The translations under genes were made by a program, and so were the position numbers. Below the pieces are notes generated by a model that was not told the DNA's origin, ran no database searches, and saw only the letters and a list, made by a program, of their open reading frames with translations. DNA of 31,417 nt, from the IMG/VR virus record IMGVR_UViG_3300005613_000271, positions 1 to 31,417 of that record. One strand, given 5' to 3'. Below, in pieces: positions 15,119 to 31,371 of the stretch; positions within the stretch are counted from its first letter, which is position 1, and the number at the start of each line of letters is the position of its first letter. Origin of the DNA: a virus.

Positions 15119-16636
15119 TTATGCATTGTAGTTCGGTTCAATTTGACCGTTTGACTTGGTGTTGTAAACAACAAGCATGTTTTCCTTCAGCATCTGGAAT
15201 TCCTTACCGTCAACTGATGTCATGGGCTTGCCTTCACCTGTCATACCATTAATATAATAATATACCAGGTTACGGTTTACGCCTTCGCGGCCACGGGTAC
15301 GAATTTCAACATTCGGCTTGCCGGTATCACTGGTGGAGTTATCCATGCAGTAATATGTGCAGCTCATTGCAAGTTTACCGTTTGAAAGCTTCCTGGGAAA
15401 CTTAAGCTCGTCGTCCATCATAGGATTGTGTACAAACACAATCTGACTTCCGGCGACATTAAGTGTATTGAACTGATATCCGACAGCAGGACTTCCGCCG
15501 CCAACACCTGAAGGAGCAGGCAGGTTTTGTGTGAAATTATAAGTTGCCAGCCCGTGAGCGGCAATAACATCATGTGCGTTTTGCATACCTTCAGTACCAG
15601 TTACAAAGTAATACAGTTTACCACCACTCATTTCTGCCTTCTTGTCCATGGCAATGACCATGTCTTTGAAGTCATCATAAGTAGCAAGTCCGTCTGCACC
15701 ACTTGCTTCCAGGTCGTTTGAACCTTTTATTTGTTCCAGCCAGCCGTCACCGGCGGTGATGGGCATTCCAGTTTCCGGGTCAGTCATTGATGGTGAACCC
15801 AACAGATTTCCGTCGGAATCCTTCATTGTTGATTTTCCCCACCATTTTTGGAACTCATCTTCCATCAGGAACTGAGCTCTTGATTGTGACTCGATCCAGA
15901 AAATCCAACCCTTGGATGATCCGCCGTTTTTGTTGGTGACAACATACCACAGAACCCTTTCAGCGTTGGCGTCACCGGTAATGGCAGCACCTTTCCTCTG
16001 AATGGTCATGTGGTTGATGTACTGGTCAGGATAGTGTACACGTCCATACCCTTTCAGTGATCTCTCACCGTGAGTGGTATAGCCACCGAAACAGGTCTTT
16101 TCTCCTGTTTGAGGTGCAATCCAGGTTGTCCAGGAGAAAGTATCTCCGGGGAAACACTGGAAGGTGTAGTGATACGTTCCATCAGGATTCTTTGCATGGT
16201 TCATCACCCTGGCCATTTTGCCATTGTAAAAAATAGCATTCATGTCCGGCTGAAGATATGCATCTCTAAGTTGGAGCGTAAAGAAGCCGCCATACGAAGT
16301 AGTGCCGGCAGTAGGAGTACCTACGGCAGCAGTTCCAAGTATAACGGACGCGGCCTGGATACGTCCCATGATGTGGTAACGCCAGGCTTTGTTTGATGTA
16401 AGTTCCCCTTCAGGAACCTTTGGGATCCTCGTTTTATATGTGTTGGTGGTCCTTGGCACAGTAAAAGCACCGTTGGTAGCACCAGCAGTGAGGAAGGTCA
16501 TCAGATAACGCTTTTCAGCGTACATGATAACCTTATCATATCCAGAGGCAGGGTCCAGTGCATTTGCATTGGTGAGGTTAAGCTCAGTGATACAATCTCT
16601 GTTCCACTTGCCCTCTGTAATTTGTATTTTAGCCAT
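15119..16636 (-). CDS. Major capsid protein (putative), 505 aa
   Basis: Position is the main evidence: the gene follows TerL, portal and an acidic scaffold-like gene, and is bracketed by a 5' hairpin and a strong 3' terminator, as expected for the most abundant virion protein. Its composition is that of a structural protein (Gly, Thr, Asn and aromatics, few low-complexity stretches, no signal peptide). About 500 residues is normal for capsid proteins of large podoviruses. I do not see motifs that let me match it to the crAss-like capsid sequences I can recall, so it may represent a divergent HK97-fold capsid lineage. The gene is certain and the product very likely. Confidence 0.82.
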   Translation of the reverse strand: MAKIQITEGKWNRDCITELNLTNANALDPASGYDKVIMYAEKRYLMTFLTAGATNGAFTVPRTTNTYKTRIPKVPEGELTSNKAWRYHIMGRIQAASVILGTAAVGTPTAGTTSYGGFFTLQLRDAYLQPDMNAIFYNGKMARVMNHAKNPDGTYHYTFQCFPGDTFSWTTWIAPQTGEKTCFGGYTTHGERSLKGYGRVHYPDQYINHMTIQRKGAAITGDANAERVLWYVVTNKNGGSSKGWIFWIESQSRAQFLMEDEFQKWWGKSTMKDSDGNLLGSPSMTDPETGMPITAGDGWLEQIKGSNDLEASGADGLATYDDFKDMVIAMDKKAEMSGGKLYYFVTGTEGMQNAHDVIAAHGLATYNFTQNLPAPSGVGGGSPAVGYQFNTLNVAGSQIVFVHNPMMDDELKFPRKLSNGKLAMSCTYYCMDNSTSDTGKPNVEIRTRGREGVNRNLVYYYINGMTGEGKPMTSVDGKEFQMLKENMLVVYNTKSNGQIEPNYNA

Positions 16637-17942: not shown

Positions 17943-20135
17943 CTAATTTTTATTATCGTTACTTTTCTCTTTATTTTTATCCTTCTGCAAATTAACACGG
18001 TTTTTTGCAGATTCCATAAGTCCTTTAGCGCCTAACTTCATTGCTTCAGTTTTGCGTTTTTCCTCTTCCATCACTATATCATGAGCTTGCTTGTCTTCCC
18101 TGTCTTCCCTTGCTATTTGGATACCCTGTGCAATTTTCGCCTCATCTGATTTAGCCTTTTGCTGGATAGACATTGTTTGCATTTGCTGTACTTGTTCCCA
18201 GGCATCATCCAGTACCTTAAGACCCATATTAAGATCTTTGGCCATTTCGAAACGAATAACATCTTTTGTTCTAAGAGCACCTGAGTTGATTTCAACAGGA
18301 AAGTATTGTCTTATCCTTTCCTTTATTTCCTGGATCTTCTTTCCGTCAGATAAATATACCCCAAACTCACTAAAGTACAGCTCATCAATTAAATTGCCAA
18401 GATCGATAAGATTATCACCATACTTAATATATGTGGAAGTTCTTGATATGTATTCTTTATTTAGCTTGACCTTTTCACAAAGTTTTGTCAAGATCTTTTC
18501 CATGAACTCATTAATAAAAAAGAAGGCGTCTTTAGTAATGTTTCGTGAAGCTTCAATATTCTGCATAGCACCTGTAGCTGTGATCGACGCCTTCCCTTGT
18601 CCTTCTCTGTCCTCGTTTATTCCTGTAATCCTGTCCACGGTTTGCTCAATGGCAAGCTTCATGTTGATTAACTCTTTTAAGCTATCGCTCACACCTAAGT
18701 TTAGCTCTTTAATGACATTGGCTGCATTTTCGACTTCCCTGCCATATAAATTACCTTCCTCTGCTGAATTTATTTTCAAAACGCCATGCTCTACAACATC
18801 ATAAAGTACACCGCTCATGTCCATGCCACTCGGTACCAATGATTCATCATAGACAAATACCTGACCTTTTATCTTTTTAAGTTCACGAAGTATTTGCCAC
18901 ATTATGATGTCATATACTTCATCCAGGTTATAAATTAGCTCCTGGATGCTTACCCTGGTATTACCTATGGTCCCAAAAAGCAGGTGAGTATAGTCACTCT
19001 TTGCAAAATATTTCTTACCGCTGCCTTTGGTTTGTATAACATTTTGCTTTCGGCCAAGTTCAAGATATATTGGATCGCCGCCATCACCTATCCTATAGCC
19101 TTTATGTATTTGCTCACCCCATTGCACTGAAACAGTATATAGCATTTTATTAACATCCTTTTGAATTTTCTTTTCATTCTTTTCGTAATACTCAGCATCT
19201 ATATTTGTTTCATATGGAACGTCACTATCTTTAGGATAACTTGTTTTTGTATAAAATGGCCGCGGAGACGTAAATTCAACGTAATAAACCGGATATAGTG
19301 GCTGTCCACCTATTGTCTGTATGCCAGAATTTTCCAAAGATACCATATCCTTCAGCTTCTCTTTATCGGTAGCAGATATCTTAGGAAATTTTGCAAGTAT
19401 TTGGTGTTCATACATGAACATACGTTCACCGTTGAAAGGACTTTCTTCTGCATAAGGATCTCCCTCGACTTCCATATAGATTGCATTTTCCGGTGGGATT
19501 ACTCTAATGCGATCTACTTCAGCTTTGTCAGTATCTACTACTGCATGACATTGACTTACAAGTATCAGGAAGGTAAAAAACTCATAAGCTTTTCTAACAA
19601 GCTCATCTTCTTCAAGTTTTTCATCAAGGATTGCCTGCATAAATGATTCTGCCTGTTGTTTTGGACTTAACTTATTAAACAAGTCTGGATCGTTTGCTTC
19701 TGGTATCTCAAGCCCGTCCAGAATATTAAACCCAAAGGCTTTGCCAACAGCTTGAAGGTCCTCTTTAACCTGCATGGCTCCCAGTAGGACAGGAATATGA
19801 GCTAACTTTTTCGTTACTGCCTCTGGATTTGTAGCTTCAACATCCCGGTCAAATTTAAAGTCCAACATCTCACCAAGCAATAACTTAATTTTTGTACGGC
19901 CAAGACGGTATCGTATGATTGGTGTTGACGTTGATTTTCCGTAAGCTTTTTCTATATAGTTCTTGGCGATACTTGGTGAGACACCATTGTAAGAATTATA
20001 TATCTTTTGAAACTTACTACGGTTTTCAGATAAGGTGTTTTTATAATAATCGACTACCGCATCAATGTAATCTTTTATAAATTCATCCTTCTTCTTAGAT
20101 TCCGGGATATTTATATCTGGAAAGTTATTAATCAA
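17943..20135 (-). CDS. Portal protein, 730 aa
   Basis: The portal forms the dodecameric gate through which DNA enters and leaves the capsid. It follows TerL and is typical in length for large podoviruses. A conserved-looking portal core is visible around residues 500-535 (VDRITGINEDREGQG, then ASITATGAMQNIEAS), followed by a long amphipathic helical region, and the C-terminal ~90 residues are Gln/Lys/Glu-rich helices. The reading frame has no ATG near its N-terminus: the only plausible initiator is TTG at 20,135, since an in-frame stop lies 18 bases upstream of it and the next Met is about 90 residues inside. Use of TTG may limit portal expression relative to the capsid protein. Confidence 0.9.
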   Translation of the reverse strand: MINNFPDINIPESKKKDEFIKDYIDAVVDYYKNTLSENRSKFQKIYNSYNGVSPSIAKNYIEKAYGKSTSTPIIRYRLGRTKIKLLLGEMLDFKFDRDVEATNPEAVTKKLAHIPVLLGAMQVKEDLQAVGKAFGFNILDGLEIPEANDPDLFNKLSPKQQAESFMQAILDEKLEEDELVRKAYEFFTFLILVSQCHAVVDTDKAEVDRIRVIPPENAIYMEVEGDPYAEESPFNGERMFMYEHQILAKFPKISATDKEKLKDMVSLENSGIQTIGGQPLYPVYYVEFTSPRPFYTKTSYPKDSDVPYETNIDAEYYEKNEKKIQKDVNKMLYTVSVQWGEQIHKGYRIGDGGDPIYLELGRKQNVIQTKGSGKKYFAKSDYTHLLFGTIGNTRVSIQELIYNLDEVYDIIMWQILRELKKIKGQVFVYDESLVPSGMDMSGVLYDVVEHGVLKINSAEEGNLYGREVENAANVIKELNLGVSDSLKELINMKLAIEQTVDRITGINEDREGQGKASITATGAMQNIEASRNITKDAFFFINEFMEKILTKLCEKVKLNKEYISRTSTYIKYGDNLIDLGNLIDELYFSEFGVYLSDGKKIQEIKERIRQYFPVEINSGALRTKDVIRFEMAKDLNMGLKVLDDAWEQVQQMQTMSIQQKAKSDEAKIAQGIQIAREDREDKQAHDIVMEEEKRKTEAMKLGAKGLMESAKNRVNLQKDKNKEKSNDNKN

Positions 20136-20197: not shown

Positions 20198-22243
20198 TTA
20201 AATAACAGATTTGTGCTCTTCAAGTTCATTTAACATATCCGTGCTCGTTTTCATTGGTTCGGTTAATTCTTTCTCAGTCTGATCTATAGGACGGATAGGA
20301 TTGTGGTTTTTATCGAAAGAAGTTAAGTTTAATTTTTTTCTCATATCATCTTCCCTCTCTTTTTCTTGTGGCCTTTTCTTCATATCAATAAATCTCATCA
20401 ATGCATAACCTAATGCATCAGCACTATCCCAGTCAGTGCCAATGTTTTCCTCATCATAAGCAACCAGGTCATAAAGTATTTCCCTGAATGGACACTTCAT
20501 GGCATGATCATCAACCCAGGTCTGCAGGATAGATAAAAGCCTTGGTTTACTATAGGAAGTCATCTTGACACCATAGTCATGCATCATTTTTCCGTCCGGG
20601 GCATCAAAACTTCTCGGTCTCGGAGACAAGTATCTCTTACCGCCATTTTCCTTAAAGAACTGAATTACCATATCGCTTTCAGCAGAAAGCATTGAATTTT
20701 TAATGGTATCCCAATAAACTGCCATTTGAAGGCATATTTCCCAAAAAAATTCTTTCCTAGGCGGGCGCTTGTAATAGATTGCTATTGGTATCTTTCCAAC
20801 CAGATCATCTTCATCTGGTATGCCTTCATAATTACGAACTACAATAGCACCGCCAAGAGAGTCACTGGTCAGTGTATCGTCTTCGTTATATCCATCGATA
20901 CCAAGAACATCAGCATTTTTCCATTTTATCGGGTGTTTGTATATCTTAACAATACGCCAGTCCTTTTCGTTTCGTTTTGGTGGATCTGCTGTAACCTGTA
21001 ATGGCATCTTAATATTGCCGCTCTCGTCCTTAACCCAGTTTAAAACAAATTCGCCGTATGGCTCATGATCCAAAGAATCAAGCCTAAAGAGCGATCCGTA
21101 TAGAATATCGTTATTAAAATTATTGCTACCCGAACTGTTGAAGACGTCTTCTATGCTCCTGGGATACTTTTGCTTCCATTGTATCAGCGCCTTTTTGTCA
21201 GGATTTTTTGCACGCTTGGCAATACCCTGGACGATTTTTTCGTCAGCAAACATAACATCCTCACAACCAAGTAGTTGCTCGGACCTCATACCTTTGTATT
21301 CCCGGTCAAGGTTAGGTGTTTCATGAATAACTTTTCCATCCTTATCCCTGGCACCTCTATAGTGTGGATAATAATATCTTGCACCATGTATAAACTTGAA
21401 CTTCAACCCATAGCTTTCTGCCTGTGAATAAAATTTCTTGAAAGCCTTAGAACCGGCAAGCATATTGCCGCCCGTGCCATAAATTAAAAATAAACCAATG
21501 AGCATATCACCAAGCATCATGTTGGGCTTCAGTGAGTTATACGCTTCATCAGCTTTAGGGAAATGACCTGTCTCCTCAAATATAACATGATGGAAGTATT
21601 CGCCTTCAAGCTTCTCTGCCTGATCATGCAATGTCTTAAAGTTAAGGACACCATTAACGACCTTCTCTTTATTATTTCCCTTGTCTTCTTCATAGCCCAG
21701 AATAAGCTCTTCATCATTTTCTCTTAAGAAGTTCATGTGCAGCTCCGGTGGCACATCGTTGTAGAATTTAAACAGCTTCCTTCGGAACCCGGCTACATAT
21801 GTATCCAGACCCGAGACAACACCCATTCTGTAATCATCTACAAACCGGATACCGTGCCCGGCCAGAGTTACACCAACGAAACTTATACCCTTACGGCGTG
21901 CTTTAGGCATCAGAATACCACAGTAGGTCGGATCATTCTGGACCTCATCAATAGTTCTGAAGATCTCATATTGTAAGTCTACATAGTCCGGAAATACAGT
22001 CCCTAATAAACCGTCAAGGTGCTGAAAGTTCAAAAAATAGTAGTACGGTCCAGGCAACCATATCCCACCGGTTTTATATCCGTTCATACAGCGGTCCACC
22101 TGCTCTTCCCACCATTCTCGCCAGGACGAGGTTCCATAGCAGTCGGGATTGCTTCTGGAATCGGCATAAAAAGGAATATTCCCGGCTACGGGACTGGGAT
22201 CAAAACCTCTTTTTTTAATTATAATGTTATAGTCGACACTCAT
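20198..22243 (-). CDS. terL: Terminase large subunit (TerL), 681 aa
   Basis: TerL is the ATPase and nuclease that packages DNA through the portal. The ATPase Walker A-type motif is at about residues 113-121 (PKARRKGIS), Walker B at 218-224 (HHVIFEE), and a GTGG coupling motif at 256-259. The C-terminal RNase H-like nuclease shows acidic residues at about 450 (VLGID), 520-523 (AESD) and 605-608 (TDWDSAD). The N-terminal segment with GYKTGG...YYYFLNF is shared with TerLs of Bacteroidetes phages. The start overlaps the preceding stop by one base. Its length is complete for the family. Confidence 0.95.
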   Translation of the reverse strand: MSVDYNIIIKKRGFDPSPVAGNIPFYADSRSNPDCYGTSSWREWWEEQVDRCMNGYKTGGIWLPGPYYYFLNFQHLDGLLGTVFPDYVDLQYEIFRTIDEVQNDPTYCGILMPKARRKGISFVGVTLAGHGIRFVDDYRMGVVSGLDTYVAGFRRKLFKFYNDVPPELHMNFLRENDEELILGYEEDKGNNKEKVVNGVLNFKTLHDQAEKLEGEYFHHVIFEETGHFPKADEAYNSLKPNMMLGDMLIGLFLIYGTGGNMLAGSKAFKKFYSQAESYGLKFKFIHGARYYYPHYRGARDKDGKVIHETPNLDREYKGMRSEQLLGCEDVMFADEKIVQGIAKRAKNPDKKALIQWKQKYPRSIEDVFNSSGSNNFNNDILYGSLFRLDSLDHEPYGEFVLNWVKDESGNIKMPLQVTADPPKRNEKDWRIVKIYKHPIKWKNADVLGIDGYNEDDTLTSDSLGGAIVVRNYEGIPDEDDLVGKIPIAIYYKRPPRKEFFWEICLQMAVYWDTIKNSMLSAESDMVIQFFKENGGKRYLSPRPRSFDAPDGKMMHDYGVKMTSYSKPRLLSILQTWVDDHAMKCPFREILYDLVAYDEENIGTDWDSADALGYALMRFIDMKKRPQEKEREDDMRKKLNLTSFDKNHNPIRPIDQTEKELTEPMKTSTDMLNELEEHKSVI

Positions 22244-24918: not shown

Positions 24919-25791
24919 TTACCACACATCATCCCATATATCAGCTTTGGTCATCATCATATTCTGTACCTCTGCCTTCATATAATTTAAAGGTATCGTC
25001 TCTACAGATATGCTGTCTTCAAACTCATCAAAGCTCAACTGTTTCTCATCAGCCTTCCCTGGCATCCTGACAAAAATGATAAACAACCGTCCTATCTTTA
25101 CTTTAAAAAACATTTCTATCATATATGCATATATAGACTGCTGCAAGGCATACCTGTTGTAATTACAGTCTTCCAGGTGACTTATCGGCGGAAGGAAAAA
25201 CTTGTTGTAATGACGCTTGACACCTTCAGGTCCGCGCCAGATGCTGTCATAGACAATACCTTTTTCGAGATTGGTCTTAATATCAGAGATGTCAAAGACA
25301 CTCTTCTCCACATCCTTCTGACGCTGCAGGATAATATCTACTGTCCCGGCAACAAGCGGGTTTTTATGATATATCCTCTTTTCATTATATACGGCATAAT
25401 AGCCCATGGTGATCTTACTGATCTGTCTGATGATAGGAAGATATTTGTTTTCCGGCATAACACCTTTGCCGTAGTCTTCAATCATCTTGTGGATAAAGTT
25501 ACCGTGGACAATGCTGTCATCACGCTTCTTGTCCCAGCTGGACAGTATACGCTGCTGCTCCTGGATTATCTCTTTTTCATTAGGTTCATAGCCAAGCTGA
25601 TCACGAGCCTGGTACCGTGCCTTACGGTAAGAAATTCCCTCGCGGTCAAAAGGGACCGCGAAGGAATCTATAAACCGGGTAACGGGAGTAAAATCGCTAC
25701 CGTCTTTGATGCTGACATAGCTGTGACTTTCATCATCGAATTTCAGCACCTTTTCAACCAATCCAAAATCTAGAGCTGTTTGGATAGACAT
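24919..25791 (-). CDS. PD-(D/E)XK nuclease, RecB/Cas4-like, 290 aa
   Basis: Motifs of the RecB/AddB/Cas4-type PD-(D/E)XK nuclease branch occur in order: HGNFIHKMIEDY (96-107), AGTVDII with Asp152, DISDIKT with Asp170 and Lys172, and QQSIYAYMIE (217-226), matching the Q-x3-Y element. These residues form a metal-dependent DNA exonuclease centre. There are no Cys residues arranged as an iron-sulphur cluster, unlike Cas4. The protein is stand-alone, without a helicase domain. The context suggests roles in phage recombination, replication-end processing or host DNA breakdown. Crass-like phages commonly carry such a nuclease. Confidence 0.85.
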   Translation of the reverse strand: MSIQTALDFGLVEKVLKFDDESHSYVSIKDGSDFTPVTRFIDSFAVPFDREGISYRKARYQARDQLGYEPNEKEIIQEQQRILSSWDKKRDDSIVHGNFIHKMIEDYGKGVMPENKYLPIIRQISKITMGYYAVYNEKRIYHKNPLVAGTVDIILQRQKDVEKSVFDISDIKTNLEKGIVYDSIWRGPEGVKRHYNKFFLPPISHLEDCNYNRYALQQSIYAYMIEMFFKVKIGRLFIIFVRMPGKADEKQLSFDEFEDSISVETIPLNYMKAEVQNMMMTKADIWDDVW

Positions 25792-27760: not shown

Positions 27761-28237
27761 CTAAAATCTTTTCTCATAATACCCACGCTGGGCAATCTGA
27801 CTGGCTATCTGCTCACAATTACCACATGTGCACCCCGTAGGACAATTAACGTAAACCCTAAGACTTGTACTAACAGGCTGATAAGGCACAGTAGTTTTAG
27901 CACCCTGCATAGCCAGATTACGATCAGTCTTCATCATAGCCTTCCTGCTCTCCCGATCATAACCACCGTCAACAGCAAACTTGCCCACAGTCAACGCCGT
28001 CCCCATCATCGCATCCAACGCCCCCAAAACAACCAACACCCCAGCAGGCGCACCAAAACCACTCGCCACAGCTAAACCACCACTTACCAATATTAACCCC
28101 AAACCACACCAGCGAGCCAATACCTTGAAAAACCTCGGACTGGGAGCACGTAACCGATCATATGCCTCACTCTCATAACGCAACCTGCGGTCAAGATCCT
28201 TTAAACCCTTTCCCCCTTTTATTATTATCTCTCTCAT
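27761..28237 (-). CDS. Two-TM membrane protein with Cys cluster, 158 aa
   Basis: A basic N-terminal region (about 1-35) precedes two adjacent Gly/Ala/Val-rich hydrophobic helices (about 40-60 and 63-86). The C-terminal part contains four closely spaced Cys residues at 132, 136, 138 and 141 (CPTGCTCGNC), which could bind zinc or a metal cluster. The start overlaps the preceding stop by four bases (ATGA). Small membrane proteins with a metal-binding tail may anchor DNA or replication factors, or act in host takeover. The function is unknown. Codon usage is markedly G/T-rich on the coding strand. Confidence 0.7.
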   Translation of the reverse strand: MREIIIKGGKGLKDLDRRLRYESEAYDRLRAPSPRFFKVLARWCGLGLILVSGGLAVASGFGAPAGVLVVLGALDAMMGTALTVGKFAVDGGYDRESRKAMMKTDRNLAMQGAKTTVPYQPVSTSLRVYVNCPTGCTCGNCEQIASQIAQRGYYEKRF

Positions 28238-28692
28238 TGTTTGTAAAAATTATCCTTAGTCATGAAATTAATGTCCGAATATACCTCAATAACAGGCATA
28301 CCAAAAGACGCCACAACCCGCGTATTGAAATAAAACCTGTCAGTGAACAATACTATCCCATCATTACCAGTAGGCATCCTCCCCTCACGCTCCAGAAAAC
28401 CCGATAACGTAAATATAGAACCGCCATTAACCGAATCAATCAAACAAACCCCACCCCTGCTGTAAACAATAACCATCAACATCTCCTCTATATGACGATG
28501 AATAACATTAGACATTAAACCATCATCACCAATAGGAGTACTCGTCAGAATAGACTGAGAGCAACCTAACCCATATAAAAAAACATTTAACGGATGCACT
28601 AAAGCATCATAGAAATTCTTTACAAAACCATCATCTATAGCAGCACGTAACTCACCAGGAGCCCTATCTGCCCCCAACTTCGTGTTCTCCAT
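28234..28692 (-). CDS. Hypothetical protein, 152 aa
   Basis: A soluble alpha/beta protein with no recognised motif, with several Gly-rich turns and hydrophobic strands (MLMVIVYS, GIVLFTDRFYF). The ATG at 28,692 overlaps the preceding gene by 29 bases and is preferred. An earlier ATG at 28,755 would add a strongly hydrophobic leader (VLLWLLLVLL) but would overlap the preceding gene by 92 bases. If the longer form is made, the protein would be membrane-anchored. Confidence 0.68.
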   Translation of the reverse strand: MENTKLGADRAPGELRAAIDDGFVKNFYDALVHPLNVFLYGLGCSQSILTSTPIGDDGLMSNVIHRHIEEMLMVIVYSRGGVCLIDSVNGGSIFTLSGFLEREGRMPTGNDGIVLFTDRFYFNTRVVASFGMPVIEVYSDINFMTKDNFYKQ

Positions 28693-28885
28693 ATATCTGC
28701 CTCTTGTAATCCTCCTCAGCAACACCAAAAGCAACCACAACAGCACGCAAGTCATCTATCAAAATGTCATGCGCACTATCATCAGTCAATAACGTCACAT
28801 ATAAAGGATTGTTTAAATTCTCATTAGTGAATACCAACGAATCCCTACCATCATCAGTATCCACGTCTACCTCTATTCGCATCAT
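28664..28885 (-). CDS. First gene of the leftward array, hypothetical, 73 aa
   Basis: A short acidic protein (many Asp, Glu, Val). The start is set by the promoter: its -7 box at 28,910-28,903 places transcription initiation near 28,896, so an ATG at 28,918 would be upstream of the RNA, leaving tandem ATGs at 28,885 and 28,882. The leader would be only about 11-14 bases. The product is small and unrecognised. As the first gene it may be expressed early. Confidence 0.65.
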   Translation of the reverse strand: MMRIEVDVDTDDGRDSLVFTNENLNNPLYVTLLTDDSAHDILIDDLRAVVVAFGVAEEDYKRQIYGEHEVGGR

Positions 28886-28902
28886 ACCCAATTTTAATAC
28901 CC

Positions 28903-28934
28903 CAAATATACAACACACTCAACACATATCCAAA
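28903..28934 (-). promoter_or_regulatory. Strong Bacteroidetes-type promoter for the leftward array
   Basis: Read leftward, TTTG at 28,934-28,931 is followed after 20 bases by TATATTTG at 28,910-28,903, matching the Bacteroidetes -33 TTTG / -7 TAnnTTTG consensus exactly. It precedes 32 same-direction genes and is the only strong match found in front of that array, so it is likely used by host RNA polymerase. Confidence 0.8.
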
Positions 28935-28956
28935 TACTATTTCCATTATTTGTTAA

Positions 28957-29134
28957 CTTTTACGGAATTTCTCGCTTTTAAGACCGAAATATGGACGGAT
29001 GAGGTCAGTAGGCACTTTTGAGGGGTAGGGTACCTGGAATTGGGTGGGGGGGGTCTTTTTTTTGTGGAGCTGAAGAGACTCCTTTATTATCTTTTTTATA
29101 GACGATATTGTCACAGTATTTAATCTGTATAGTT
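28957..29134. other. Non-coding hub between divergent arms, candidate origin region
   Basis: No gene is visible between the leftward promoter and the rightward zinc-ribbon gene. Strand composition changes sharply here: A/C-rich on the + strand to the left and G/T-rich to the right. It also holds a G-rich tract (29,022-29,053, with a run of eight G) followed by eight T. Replication-origin function is inferred from the composition switch and the flanking replication-type genes. No iterons were found, and no convincing rightward promoter for the first + gene (the closest is TATCTTTT near 29,088). Confidence 0.45.
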
Positions 29135-29278
29135 ATGAGAGAGTTTTGTATCAAATGCGGTGAGTACATCGGTGAGGGTACGACACCGTACTGCGAGGAC
29201 TGTTATGATTACGCTGTCAGTGATAGCTATTCTAAGCTAAAAGAAAGAGAAAGGCTATGGTTCGGTCATTGGCAGTAG
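29135..29278 (+). CDS. Zinc-ribbon peptide, 47 aa
   Basis: An ATG at 29,135 opens a short frame with two CxxC knuckles, FCIKCGEY (Cys5, Cys8) and YCEDCYDY (Cys20, Cys23), followed by an acidic/aromatic linker and a Lys/Glu/Arg helix with a Trp-rich end. The spacing is typical of a single zinc ribbon, often found in small nucleic-acid-binding or transcription-associated phage proteins. An intrinsic terminator follows six bases after the stop. It is the first rightward gene beside the hub. Its target is unknown. Confidence 0.72.
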   Translation: MREFCIKCGEYIGEGTTPYCEDCYDYAVSDSYSKLKERERLWFGHWQ

Positions 29279-29283
29279 GTGAT

Positions 29284-29305
29284 AAGGCGCATGGTGCGCC
29301 TTTTT
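29284..29305 (+). terminator. Intrinsic terminator after the zinc-ribbon gene
   Basis: An 8-bp stem (AAGGCGCA with TGCGCCTT, 3-base loop) ends in five T residues. As it lies between two same-direction genes without a visible promoter in the 29-base gap that follows, it may be leaky and set a low level for the next gene. Confidence 0.85.
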
Positions 29306-29334
29306 GTTTATCCTTATTCTTAAAACAAACTATC

Positions 29335-29598
29335 ATGGATATAAAAGAGTTCTTCAAAGGCCTTGAACAGGACAAAACAGCAGACAGCATCAAGTCAAAT
29401 GCAGAGGTACGCATTAGAATTGCTGAGGATAAGTATATGGATGTGTATGTACTAAGTCCTCTGGATATGGAAAAGTTTTGCAAGTTGTACAAAGATGAAA
29501 TAAAGGGTGAGATTGGCAGGGAGTTGTATGACTTGTTTATGCAAATAGACGACGATAAAATACACAGATACCTATTAAAGTATTTCTATCAAGACTAA
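29335..29598 (+). CDS. Hypothetical protein, 87 aa
   Basis: A short acidic, Lys/Asp/Glu-rich protein with a central beta-type strand (EVRIRIAEDKYMDVYVL) and a C-terminal helix (LYDLFMQIDDDKIHRYLLKY). The ATG at 29,335 is preferred; an upstream start would read through the terminator hairpin. No family is recognised. It lies between two intrinsic terminators, so it forms its own expression unit. Confidence 0.72.
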   Translation: MDIKEFFKGLEQDKTADSIKSNAEVRIRIAEDKYMDVYVLSPLDMEKFCKLYKDEIKGEIGRELYDLFMQIDDDKIHRYLLKYFYQD

Positions 29599-29611
29599 TG
29601 CCTGTTCTCTT

Positions 29612-29637
29612 AACACTCCTCGCGGAGTGTTTTTTTT
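29612..29637 (+). terminator. Intrinsic terminator after the 87-residue gene
   Basis: An 8-bp stem (AACACTCC with GGAGTGTT, 4-base TCGC loop) runs into seven or eight T residues. It is a strong, classic hairpin, 13 bases after the stop codon. Confidence 0.92.
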
Positions 29638-29775
29638 CTCCTTTCCCATGCATGCCCGTGCCCGTGCATATCCGCCGGCTGCAGGAGGCATAGCAGGCGT
29701 AAATTATCCTTTTTATAAAGCCAAACAGATAGGCTTGGTATATCTGTAATTGTTTAATCCATTAATCTAGAGCAT
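29638..29775. other. Non-coding region before the SSB-like gene
   Basis: The left part (29,647-29,700) is GC-rich with short direct repeats (CCCGTG twice in a row) and palindromes (CATGCATG, GCCGGC). The right part is A/T-rich and includes TATATCTG at 29,739-29,746, one mismatch from the -7 box TAnnTTTG but without a good -33 element at 19-21 bases. A promoter for the SSB-like gene is expected here, since a strong terminator lies just upstream. Confidence 0.4.
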
Positions 29776-30363
29776 ATGGATTTATTGAAATTCAAATCTG
29801 GTGCGGTTGACAGGACTGCCAATCTGTTACCAGTCGGTAGGCACGACGTGCGTATCGCCAGGGCGATTATCGTAACTGATCGCATGAAAGACCTTCAGGG
29901 TACTCTTAAGACAGAGGCCGAACTGAAGGCCAAGGGCGTAGACTACAAGGATGTGGTTCAGCAGCTCGCCATCACATTCACCCGCAAGGGCGGAGGAGTG
30001 CTAACGCACAGGTATAACACCGCGGGCTTTGAGCGTTACGCAGAGCTTGAAGATACCACTGGATACTTCTGCTCCGCTCACCCCGAGGGATACGCCATCG
30101 ACGAAGAGTCATTCGAACGCGTTGTCGATCCTGAAAGGGAAAAGCAGTGTGAGAACATCCTGAACGAGCTCTTCGAGGCTGCTGGTCTTGAGCACGGCTC
30201 GAGCTACCAGGACCTGGAGGGATGCGAGCTCTCCATCGAGGTGTACCACGACATTTGGGAGGGTCGCGAGATCCCCAAGGTCAGGGCACCAAGAAAGGCC
30301 GGATACTCTTCCGTTGGCGTCGTAGAGACAGCCACCATCGAAGAGGAAGAGGCAGACTTCTAA
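29776..30363 (+). CDS. SSB-like single-stranded DNA-binding protein, 195 aa
   Basis: The protein has a beta-rich body (about 15-165) and an acidic C-terminal tip that ends EEEEADF, like the acidic-plus-Phe tail used by SSB proteins to recruit replication partners. The body lacks a motif that I can match to a named SSB family, so the call rests mainly on the tip and context (next to a RepL-like gene and the compositional switch). Its codon use is distinctly richer in G and C at third positions than that of its neighbours, consistent with high expression or a separate origin. Its own terminator follows the gene. Confidence 0.6.
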   Translation: MDLLKFKSGAVDRTANLLPVGRHDVRIARAIIVTDRMKDLQGTLKTEAELKAKGVDYKDVVQQLAITFTRKGGGVLTHRYNTAGFERYAELEDTTGYFCSAHPEGYAIDEESFERVVDPEREKQCENILNELFEAAGLEHGSSYQDLEGCELSIEVYHDIWEGREIPKVRAPRKAGYSSVGVVETATIEEEEADF

Positions 30364-30381
30364 CAGCCCAGTGCTGATACT

Positions 30382-30409
30382 AAAAACCCCCACTAAGGGG
30401 GTTTTTTTT
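30382..30409 (+). terminator. Intrinsic terminator after the SSB-like gene
   Basis: A 10-bp stem (AAAAACCCCC with GGGGGTTTTT, 5-base loop) is followed by more T residues to 30,409. The stem also has an A-run on its left side, so it may act in both directions and block leftward transcription from the RepL-like unit. Confidence 0.92.
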
Positions 30410-30593
30410 GCCAAGATTGCCAATACGAGTGAAATAGATGATAAGAGGAATGATGTGACAAATATACAATAAAATTATTCCCTTTCCAAATGCATGTTAC
30501 CCTTTTTTTATTTTAGGCAGTTGTTAATAACTTTTAATAACTCATGTATCCTACTAAAAACCCATACTAGCGAATATATGCATATTTTGAACA

Positions 30594-30625
30594 TTTGACT
30601 TTCTCATTTATTTTCGCTAACTTTG
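30594..30625 (+). promoter_or_regulatory. Strong Bacteroidetes-type promoter in the non-coding region
   Basis: TTTG at 30,594-30,597 is followed after 20 bases by TAACTTTG at 30,618-30,625, a perfect -33/-7 match with the same spacing as the main leftward promoter. Initiation is predicted near 30,632. No convincing + strand gene follows, so the transcript is probably non-coding and antisense to the 3' end of the RepL-like gene. Confidence 0.75.
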
Positions 30626-30631
30626 CTGTGC

Positions 30632-30760
30632 GTGGGAGCGCTAGCGTCGGGGGATACGCGGCACATGGGAGCTGTTCTTGGCCCCGCCTCCCGGGTTGTG
30701 AGCCTTTCTGCTTTTCGGGTGCTATGCTATTTTGTTCGCATTTCATTTTTCCACGGTATT
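30632..30760 (+). ncRNA. Candidate structured non-coding RNA
   Basis: It begins at the predicted start of the promoter at 30,594-30,625. The first ~90 bases are GC-rich against an A/T-rich surround. GCGT (30,630-30,633) can pair with ACGC (30,656-30,659), and two GGGAG blocks (30,634-30,638 and 30,667-30,671) compete for one CTCCC (30,688-30,692), giving two alternative folds. The 3' end is uncertain: weak stems and T-rich runs lie at 30,740-30,785. The overlap with the 3' end of the convergent RepL-like gene suggests antisense control. It is not a tRNA. Confidence 0.45.
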
Positions 30761-31141
30761 TCTTTTTTCTTGTCCGTCTTTTTTGAGGGTAACGATCATT
30801 TGTATGGTGTTGTTGCTTGTGAGCAGTTTATCCTGGATGAAGAATGTCATTGGTTGTGTTGAGCGGGCGATGAGGTTATGGTGTATGAGTTCGCTAAGGG
30901 CTTTGTATGTGGTATCGGGGGATTTGAATGGCAGGTTATTTTTGTCCAGGGTGATGGTGTGGGTATTGTGGTTAGTGGTTATATGCAGGAGCATGTGGGA
31001 TGCTTTAGGGGAGAGGTTGAACCATGCTGTGAGCAGGCGGGTTATGTCCCTGGGTGTTTTGGGGTATTGTTGGTGGAATTCGGTTATTTGTTTAGTGAGT
31101 GGTGATTCCTGGTACTTGGTATGTTCTTTAAATGATTTCAT
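30743..31141 (-). CDS. RepL-like winged-helix replication protein, 132 aa
   Basis: The C-terminal half reads as a winged helix: a helix TTYKALSELIHHNLIARS, then a wing with TFFIQDKLLTSNNTIQMIV. The L-x2-L-x3-N/G-L-I-A-R-S-T-x-P-x-x-F-F-I pattern recalls plasmid RepL initiator proteins, which occur in some crAss-like phages. The N-terminal half is Thr/His/Asn/Pro-rich, reflecting an A/C-rich coding strand that runs against the local strand bias. The gene is 11 bases downstream of the 72-residue gene. A wHTH regulator of another family is the alternative. Confidence 0.6.
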   Translation of the reverse strand: MKSFKEHTKYQESPLTKQITEFHQQYPKTPRDITRLLTAWFNLSPKASHMLLHITTNHNTHTITLDKNNLPFKSPDTTYKALSELIHHNLIARSTQPMTFFIQDKLLTSNNTIQMIVTLKKDGQEKRNTVEK

Positions 31142-31152
31142 AGTTATGCATG

Positions 31153-31371
31153 TTATTGTGAATATTTCTGTCGTGTTGTTGGTGTGACTGGTTTTTTGTA
31201 TATTAGGATTACTTCATTGAGGGGATTTCCGTTGGCAGCTTTTTCGAGGTATATTATGTTGATCATTTCCCACCGGGTTGGTTTTTCTTCTTGCTCCAGT
31301 TTTTTGAGGTGATCTATCAGCCTGGTGATATGCACCATCTCGTGTTTATATATCCAGTATTGTTTTTCCAT
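31153..31371 (-). CDS. Small hypothetical protein, 72 aa
   Basis: A short helical, charged protein (RLIDHLKKLEQEEKPTRWEMI) without a recognised family. It follows the promoter at the right edge almost without a leader (about 4 bases) and is followed after 11 bases by the RepL-like gene. It may be a small regulator of replication, but no motif shows this. Confidence 0.62.
   Translation of the reverse strand: MEKQYWIYKHEMVHITRLIDHLKKLEQEEKPTRWEMINIIYLEKAANGNPLNEVILIYKKPVTPTTRQKYSQ

Follow-up and report, generated by a model that had tools for sequence, protein, structure and literature searches.

Does the sharp change in strand composition near position 29,000 of this viral DNA mark a replication origin, or does it follow from the direction in which the genes are read? 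We analysed the whole of record IMGVR_UViG_3300005613_000271, positions 1–31,417 (31,417 bases; the window, hereafter W). An earlier note had described a + strand rich in A and C to the left and in G and T to the right, and its hand counts are exact: 52 of 60 bases are A or C at 28,021–28,080 (29 C, 6 G), and 44 of 60 are G or T at 31,021–31,080 (23 G, 8 C). The switch is real and far beyond chance when its change points are set against an arm null, and it divides a leftward structural arm from a rightward side that carries an SSB-like gene.

A crAss-like fragment and its relatives

Crassvirales belong to the most common phages in the human gut. Judged from its sequence, W is part of the genome of a distant crAss-like phage. 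In the PHROG families that its terminase, portal and capsid match (PHROG 6681, 6547, 11589), the nearest members with an annotation come from crAss-like phages. The homologous terminase, portal and major capsid proteins are all present, and the arms are oppositely oriented with the structural genes on one, both in the W fragment and in the whole relatives G007 and G014. Because the terminase is only 22–24% identical to those of Crassvirales, W is a distant relative, and because end repeats are absent from the 31,417-base record, it is probably a genome fragment. The genes of W are:

1–24,192, minus strand: structural (late) arm, all genes leftward, tail genes among them (PHROG 6681, 6547, 11589, 28748; homologues in G001, G002, G007)
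15,119–16,636, minus strand: major capsid, structural arm
17,943–20,135, minus strand: portal, structural arm
20,198–22,243, minus strand: terminase, structural arm
24,919–25,791, minus strand: PD-(D/E)XK-type exonuclease (phrog_298, E 1e-17; crAss-like homologues annotated as PD-(D/E)XK nuclease)
27,761–28,755, minus strand: two small genes with no assigned function, coding strand strongly G/T-rich (keto bias at fourfold sites +0.67 and +0.80)
29,135–29,278, plus strand: 47-aa zinc-ribbon-like ORF (CxxC...CxxC, read from the sequence), first gene of the rightward side
29,335–29,598, plus strand: 87-aa gene with no assigned function, composition neutral
29,776–30,363, plus strand: SSB-like protein, 195 aa (homologues in three relatives; structure model)
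30,743–31,141, minus strand: RepL-like winged-helix protein, A/C-rich coding strand
31,153–31,371, minus strand: 72-aa gene with no assigned function, A/C-rich coding strand

A terminator-like hairpin with a T-run lies near 29,611–29,637, after the 87-aa gene.

Relatives were retrieved by a capsid protein search and terminase alignment. The seven-genome set consists of W, G001 (57 kb; capsid 77% against W), G002 (89 kb; capsid 71%), G007 (94 kb; terminase 41%) and the shorter relatives G006 (L007), G008 and G010. G007 has a 4,953-base terminal repeat and thus measures ~89,191 bases once closed; both G007 and G014 are terminally redundant and apparently complete. Structural gene order is the same in W and its relatives. 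Single-protein queries (SSB-like, RepL-like, terminase) found no close relatives, no DNA-level match to W was present among phage records, and no contig overlapping its right end was found. W contains no tRNA, and an Rfam search of it gave no match.

A giant virion RNA polymerase was sought in the structural arm, where open frames reach 4720 aa in G007 and 4144 aa in G002; a 2816-aa part of the G007 frame had no match in Pfam or PHROG. Separately, the cr131_1 terminase gene (L004, 7998–10493) carries an apparent intein-like insertion when aligned with other terminases. Upstream of the terminase, G006 has a 526-aa ORF (L007, 1939–3519) that looks GroEL-chaperonin-like by eye, and an annotated GroEL lies on the same arm of phi14:2.

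The labels SSB-like and RepL-like, given earlier, are reasonable. Three relatives have homologues of the SSB-like protein (34–38% identical). As a possible OB-fold match, Foldseek pairs its low-confidence model (pLDDT 53) with PrgE of plasmid pCF10 (E 1e-4). G007 has two diverged SSB-like genes (L103, 5134–5784 and 2318–2896), one of them directly at the boundary. The RepL-like protein, whose predicted model is winged-helix-like, has a counterpart in G001 (34% across 99 aa; E 3e-13), and alignment extends the family to G002 and G007. The aligned G007 homologue matches PF05732 (27 bits, cut-off 20.3); the W protein itself has no Pfam match and so does not reach the PF05732 cut-off. A PF05732 search over 14 contigs returned zero matches, even in G007, where hmmscan detects the family, and is therefore no evidence of absence.

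Composition steps and predicted promoters

The GC change point lies at 28,986 (support 28,930–29,003) with a log-likelihood ratio of 75 nats, and a keto change point lies at 28,938 (28,926–28,958; 38 nats). The strongest keto step is a second one, at 30,594 (30,565–30,629). Random stretches of the arm 1–26,000 give at most 7.5 nats, against 38–81 observed. Cumulative GC skew across W has its minimum at 28,985, near 29,000 as the earlier note anticipated. The single switch that it described is thus correct for the step at ~29,000 but incomplete, since 29,300–30,590 is nearly neutral and the stronger keto step follows it. Under a synonymous-codon null, the two genes at 27,761–28,755 have z = +7.5 and +7.9, the RepL-like gene −8.8 and the 72-aa gene −5.3, which shows that the switch does not come from amino-acid content.

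The statement that position and not coding strand determines the bias does not hold. To the right of the switch, neither the rightward 87-aa gene nor the SSB-like gene is G/T-rich, and the RepL-like coding strand varies at fourfold sites, with keto values of −0.60 in W, 0.0 in G002 and +0.40 in G001, the nearest homologue, where A/C-richness is therefore absent. This variation would suit a gene-specific origin of the spikes, in which the A/C-rich RepL-like and 72-aa genes were recently acquired or are under unusual codon selection, and marine relatives also have A/C-rich coding strands adjoining the boundary. We consider this explanation improbable: it accounts neither for the structural-side gradient common to seven genomes nor for the position of the steps at promoters.

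Perfect promoter sites were searched across the 31.4 kb as TTTG-N19–21-TAnnTTTG, a consensus which, from general knowledge of Bacteroidetes promoters, we take to be Bacteroidetes-type. Only three sites occur in W, where 0.69 are expected and at least three appeared in 3 of 100 shuffles, and two of the three coincide with the two keto steps. The sites and the features around them are:

28,903–28,934, minus strand: predicted perfect promoter TTTG-N20-TATATTTG for the leftward operon, keto change point 28,938 at the site
28,939–29,134, no strand: divergent boundary region with GC change point 28,986, G-runs and a T-run
29,022–29,053, plus strand: G-run element GGGGTAGGGTACCTGGAATTGGGTGGGGGGGG, with T8 after it at 29,056–29,063
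30,382–30,409, no strand: bidirectional terminator-like hairpin AAAAACCCCC/GGGGGTTTTT
30,459–30,490, minus strand: predicted perfect promoter, reading left into the terminator-like hairpin
30,490–30,594, no strand: gap between divergent promoters, 72% A+T, with repeated TTAATAACT and palindrome ATATATGCATAT
30,594–30,625, plus strand: predicted perfect promoter TTTG...TAACTTTG, strongest keto change point 30,594 on the site

The boundaries of G001 and G006 each have a perfect site reading to the structural side. Just upstream of the G-quadruplex motif at 29,022–29,053 there is no rightward perfect promoter. Further right, the promoter at 30,459–30,490 reaches the terminator ~50–80 bases on (30,382–30,490), and a short RNA from it, between the SSB-like and RepL-like genes, is a possible candidate. 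The gap 30,490–30,594 is possibly a second origin candidate or an operator. A structured RNA starting at 30,632 was dropped (folding z +0.9).

Gene orientation and the silent-site gradient

Cumulative GC skew correlates with cumulative gene orientation at 0.997 in G007 and G014, and the arm-wide skew is gene orientation; in crAss001 and phi14:2, the GC-skew maximum falls at the convergent gene boundary. Silent sites behave differently near the switch. Pooled over structural-arm genes, fourfold-site GC skew climbs towards the switch: the bins more than 6 kb away give −0.13, −0.12 and −0.11 (−0.13 beyond 20 kb), and the nearer ones ~0 at 3–6 kb, +0.06 at 2–3 kb, +0.34 at 1–2 kb and +0.61 in the last kilobase. 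Beside the switch it is positive on the structural side in all seven genomes, and the G excess is restricted to ~2 kb on that side. None of 5000 random placements reached the pooled value or made all seven genomes positive, although G001-like extremes vary and G002 and G008 are individually unexceptional.

Distant structural genes have no silent-site G excess; their slight C excess is the opposite of the leading-strand expectation. On the other side, genes pointing away from the boundary lack a G excess (−0.13, −0.29), and genes pointing toward it at +1 to +2 kb, in W and G007 only, have A/C-rich coding strands. The bias is thus neither independent of gene orientation along both arms, as the 0.997 correlation and the far silent sites indicate, nor symmetric and diverging, as the co-oriented genes of the other side indicate, and bidirectionality of the origin proposed earlier is not supported.

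Marine relatives (G012 24–28 kb, which is L138, and L043, L047, L057, L081) show a further pattern: over several kilobases of the early side adjoining the boundary, the plus strand is strongly G/T-rich although the minus strand carries the called genes, the reverse of the sign seen in the W clade.

We favour, with about even confidence, a divergent control region that sends the late structural arm leftward and the early SSB side rightward, with a local asymmetry anchored at promoters. The observations that it joins are steps placed on promoter-consensus sites and a one-sided silent-site gradient conserved in seven genomes. The broad structural-side skew is the ordinary purine-rich coding-strand bias of same-direction genes. 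The local silent-site bias starts at the predicted host-type promoters (28,934 leftward, 30,594 rightward) and, towards the structural side, has faded within 2–3 kb. As the most likely cause, the non-template strand immediately past each promoter would be single-stranded for long periods, in open complexes or R-loops, and would lose C, in this genome also A, through deamination. Promoter activity, R-loops and deamination are what we infer here.

Several observations count against this control-region reading. Late genes such as the capsid gene, for which strong transcription is expected, sit in bins that lack a silent G excess; the level of transcription is therefore insufficient by itself. A transcript from the 30,594 promoter would run antisense to the RepL-like gene, in a place with no evident rightward gene, and the perfect spelling reading structural-ward at the boundary occurs in only three of the seven genomes (W, G001, G006). 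A D-loop at an origin would expose the same strand, and an RNA-primed origin would join the promoter and origin readings. G007 also encodes a uracil-DNA glycosylase (PF03167; L106, 8718–9581), which is relevant should cytosine deamination be the source of the local bias.

The conserved boundary element and the origin question

Conservation was examined by anchoring each genome on the G-run of the gap between divergent genes. The step lies at the same position in W and the six relatives, each of which has G-runs in the gap, and GC skew changes sign within 500 bases of the G-run in 7/7 genomes. Averaged over the set, structural-side GC skew is strongest adjoining the G-run, and the most extreme structural-side kilobase of the record lies ~2 kb or less from the boundary in W, G001, G002 and G007. 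The outward strand of the gap carries a G6+ run in W, G001, G002, G006, G007, G008 and also phi14:2, where 0.002–0.012 are expected each from the record's own density; G010 has two G5 runs. A single global GC-skew minimum falls at the site in W and in G007 (5,898, on its G-runs), and lies 0.7 kb away in G014.

Within W, no G6+/C6+ run was found outside GGGGTAGGGTACCTGGAATTGGGTGGGGGGGG, which also contains the sole G-quadruplex-type motif found (loops up to 12), and this four-run motif is unique to W among the switch regions. Apart from G002, a scan for the exact G-run motif hit only contigs that do not match these phages; by itself, the short motif is therefore not diagnostic. Folding of the boundary gave z 0, and the idea of a stable single-strand hairpin there was abandoned.

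At the same boundary, marine relatives have an element composed of an A/T tract, a TTTGAG-like box, a C-run and often a G-run. The profile built from it picks out a single strong copy in each of the records G012, G013 and G014, and none in W, G001, G002 or G007; the correspondence with the W clade is one of position and G-runs, without significant alignment, and the resemblance by eye is a lead only. By eye, the crAss001 and cr4_1 boundaries also hold A/T tracts and G/C runs. The local spike is absent in crAss001, phi14:2 and Azobacteroides phage ProJPt-Bp1.

In several relatives the element lies ~60–100 bp before the first SSB-side ATG, as would a first early promoter, for host or virion RNA polymerase, with its leader and no relation to replication. 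The genes expressed at 0–10 min in crAss001 are on that side (PMC8375218), and virion RNA polymerase transcribes the early genes of phi14:2 (PMC10136315). However, each genome has only one strong copy although early and middle genes are many, and the sequence differs strongly between the W clade and marine phages; the marine model misses W. We find this reading doubtful.

A replication origin within 28,939–29,134, whose local silent-site bias would be the scar of repeatedly displaced single strands, is a tentative reading with somewhat better prospects than the early promoter. Replication might possibly start from an RNA primer kept by the G-run as an R-loop. The constant position in seven genomes, the outward G-runs, the G007 global minimum, the single-copy element in distant kin and the nearby SSB-like and RepL-like genes are consistent with an origin, as is the published view that in Crassvirales two replichores are likely separated where the GC skew inverts between the arms (PMC10136315, PMC6235969). 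Against it, the arms lack silent-site G excess, the bias is one-sided, a stronger second step lies at 30,594 beyond neutral sequence, the recognisable primase and helicase genes of G007 are far from the boundary, and the spike is missing from the three phages above. Gene direction and promoters account for most of the skew, and these data therefore do not demonstrate an origin. It is unlikely, and less probable than either of these two readings, that crAss-like phages in general replicate from the boundary element, made up of an A/T tract, G- or C-runs and the first early gene, with an RNA primer at the G-run and repeated D-loops that leave the one-sided gradient.

Human mitochondrial DNA is primed from a G-quadruplex R-loop at CSBII (PMC6317783). 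A candidate parallel in W is its G-run followed by a T-run, in a presumed transcription-start region and with a G-quadruplex-type motif. RepL initiators (PF05732) offer a second comparison through the RepL-like family, and p-crAssphage has two repL copies (PMC10136315). P1 oriL is the functional comparison for RepL, with its origin postulated inside the gene (PMC9948254), but P1 RepL may belong to a different family from the PF05732-type proteins.

The replication mode of Crassvirales is stated as unknown (PMC10136315). Like crAss001 and p-crAssphage, the W clade has arms of opposite orientation and inverted GC skew, one structural and one for replication and early genes. Unlike published Crassvirales, it has a steep one-sided silent-site spike beside the boundary, plus a G-run, and its arms, which differ in length (~62 and 27 kb in G007), lack silent-site G excess. 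The silent-site gradient and the single-copy boundary element appear to be new. Arm-wide GC skew in these phages, which follows gene orientation almost perfectly, does not by itself indicate replichores. The present data weaken skew as replichore evidence, yet they single out one precise element in which origins, promoters and R-loops can be mapped: a boundary that is conserved and shows a local gradient of mutation.
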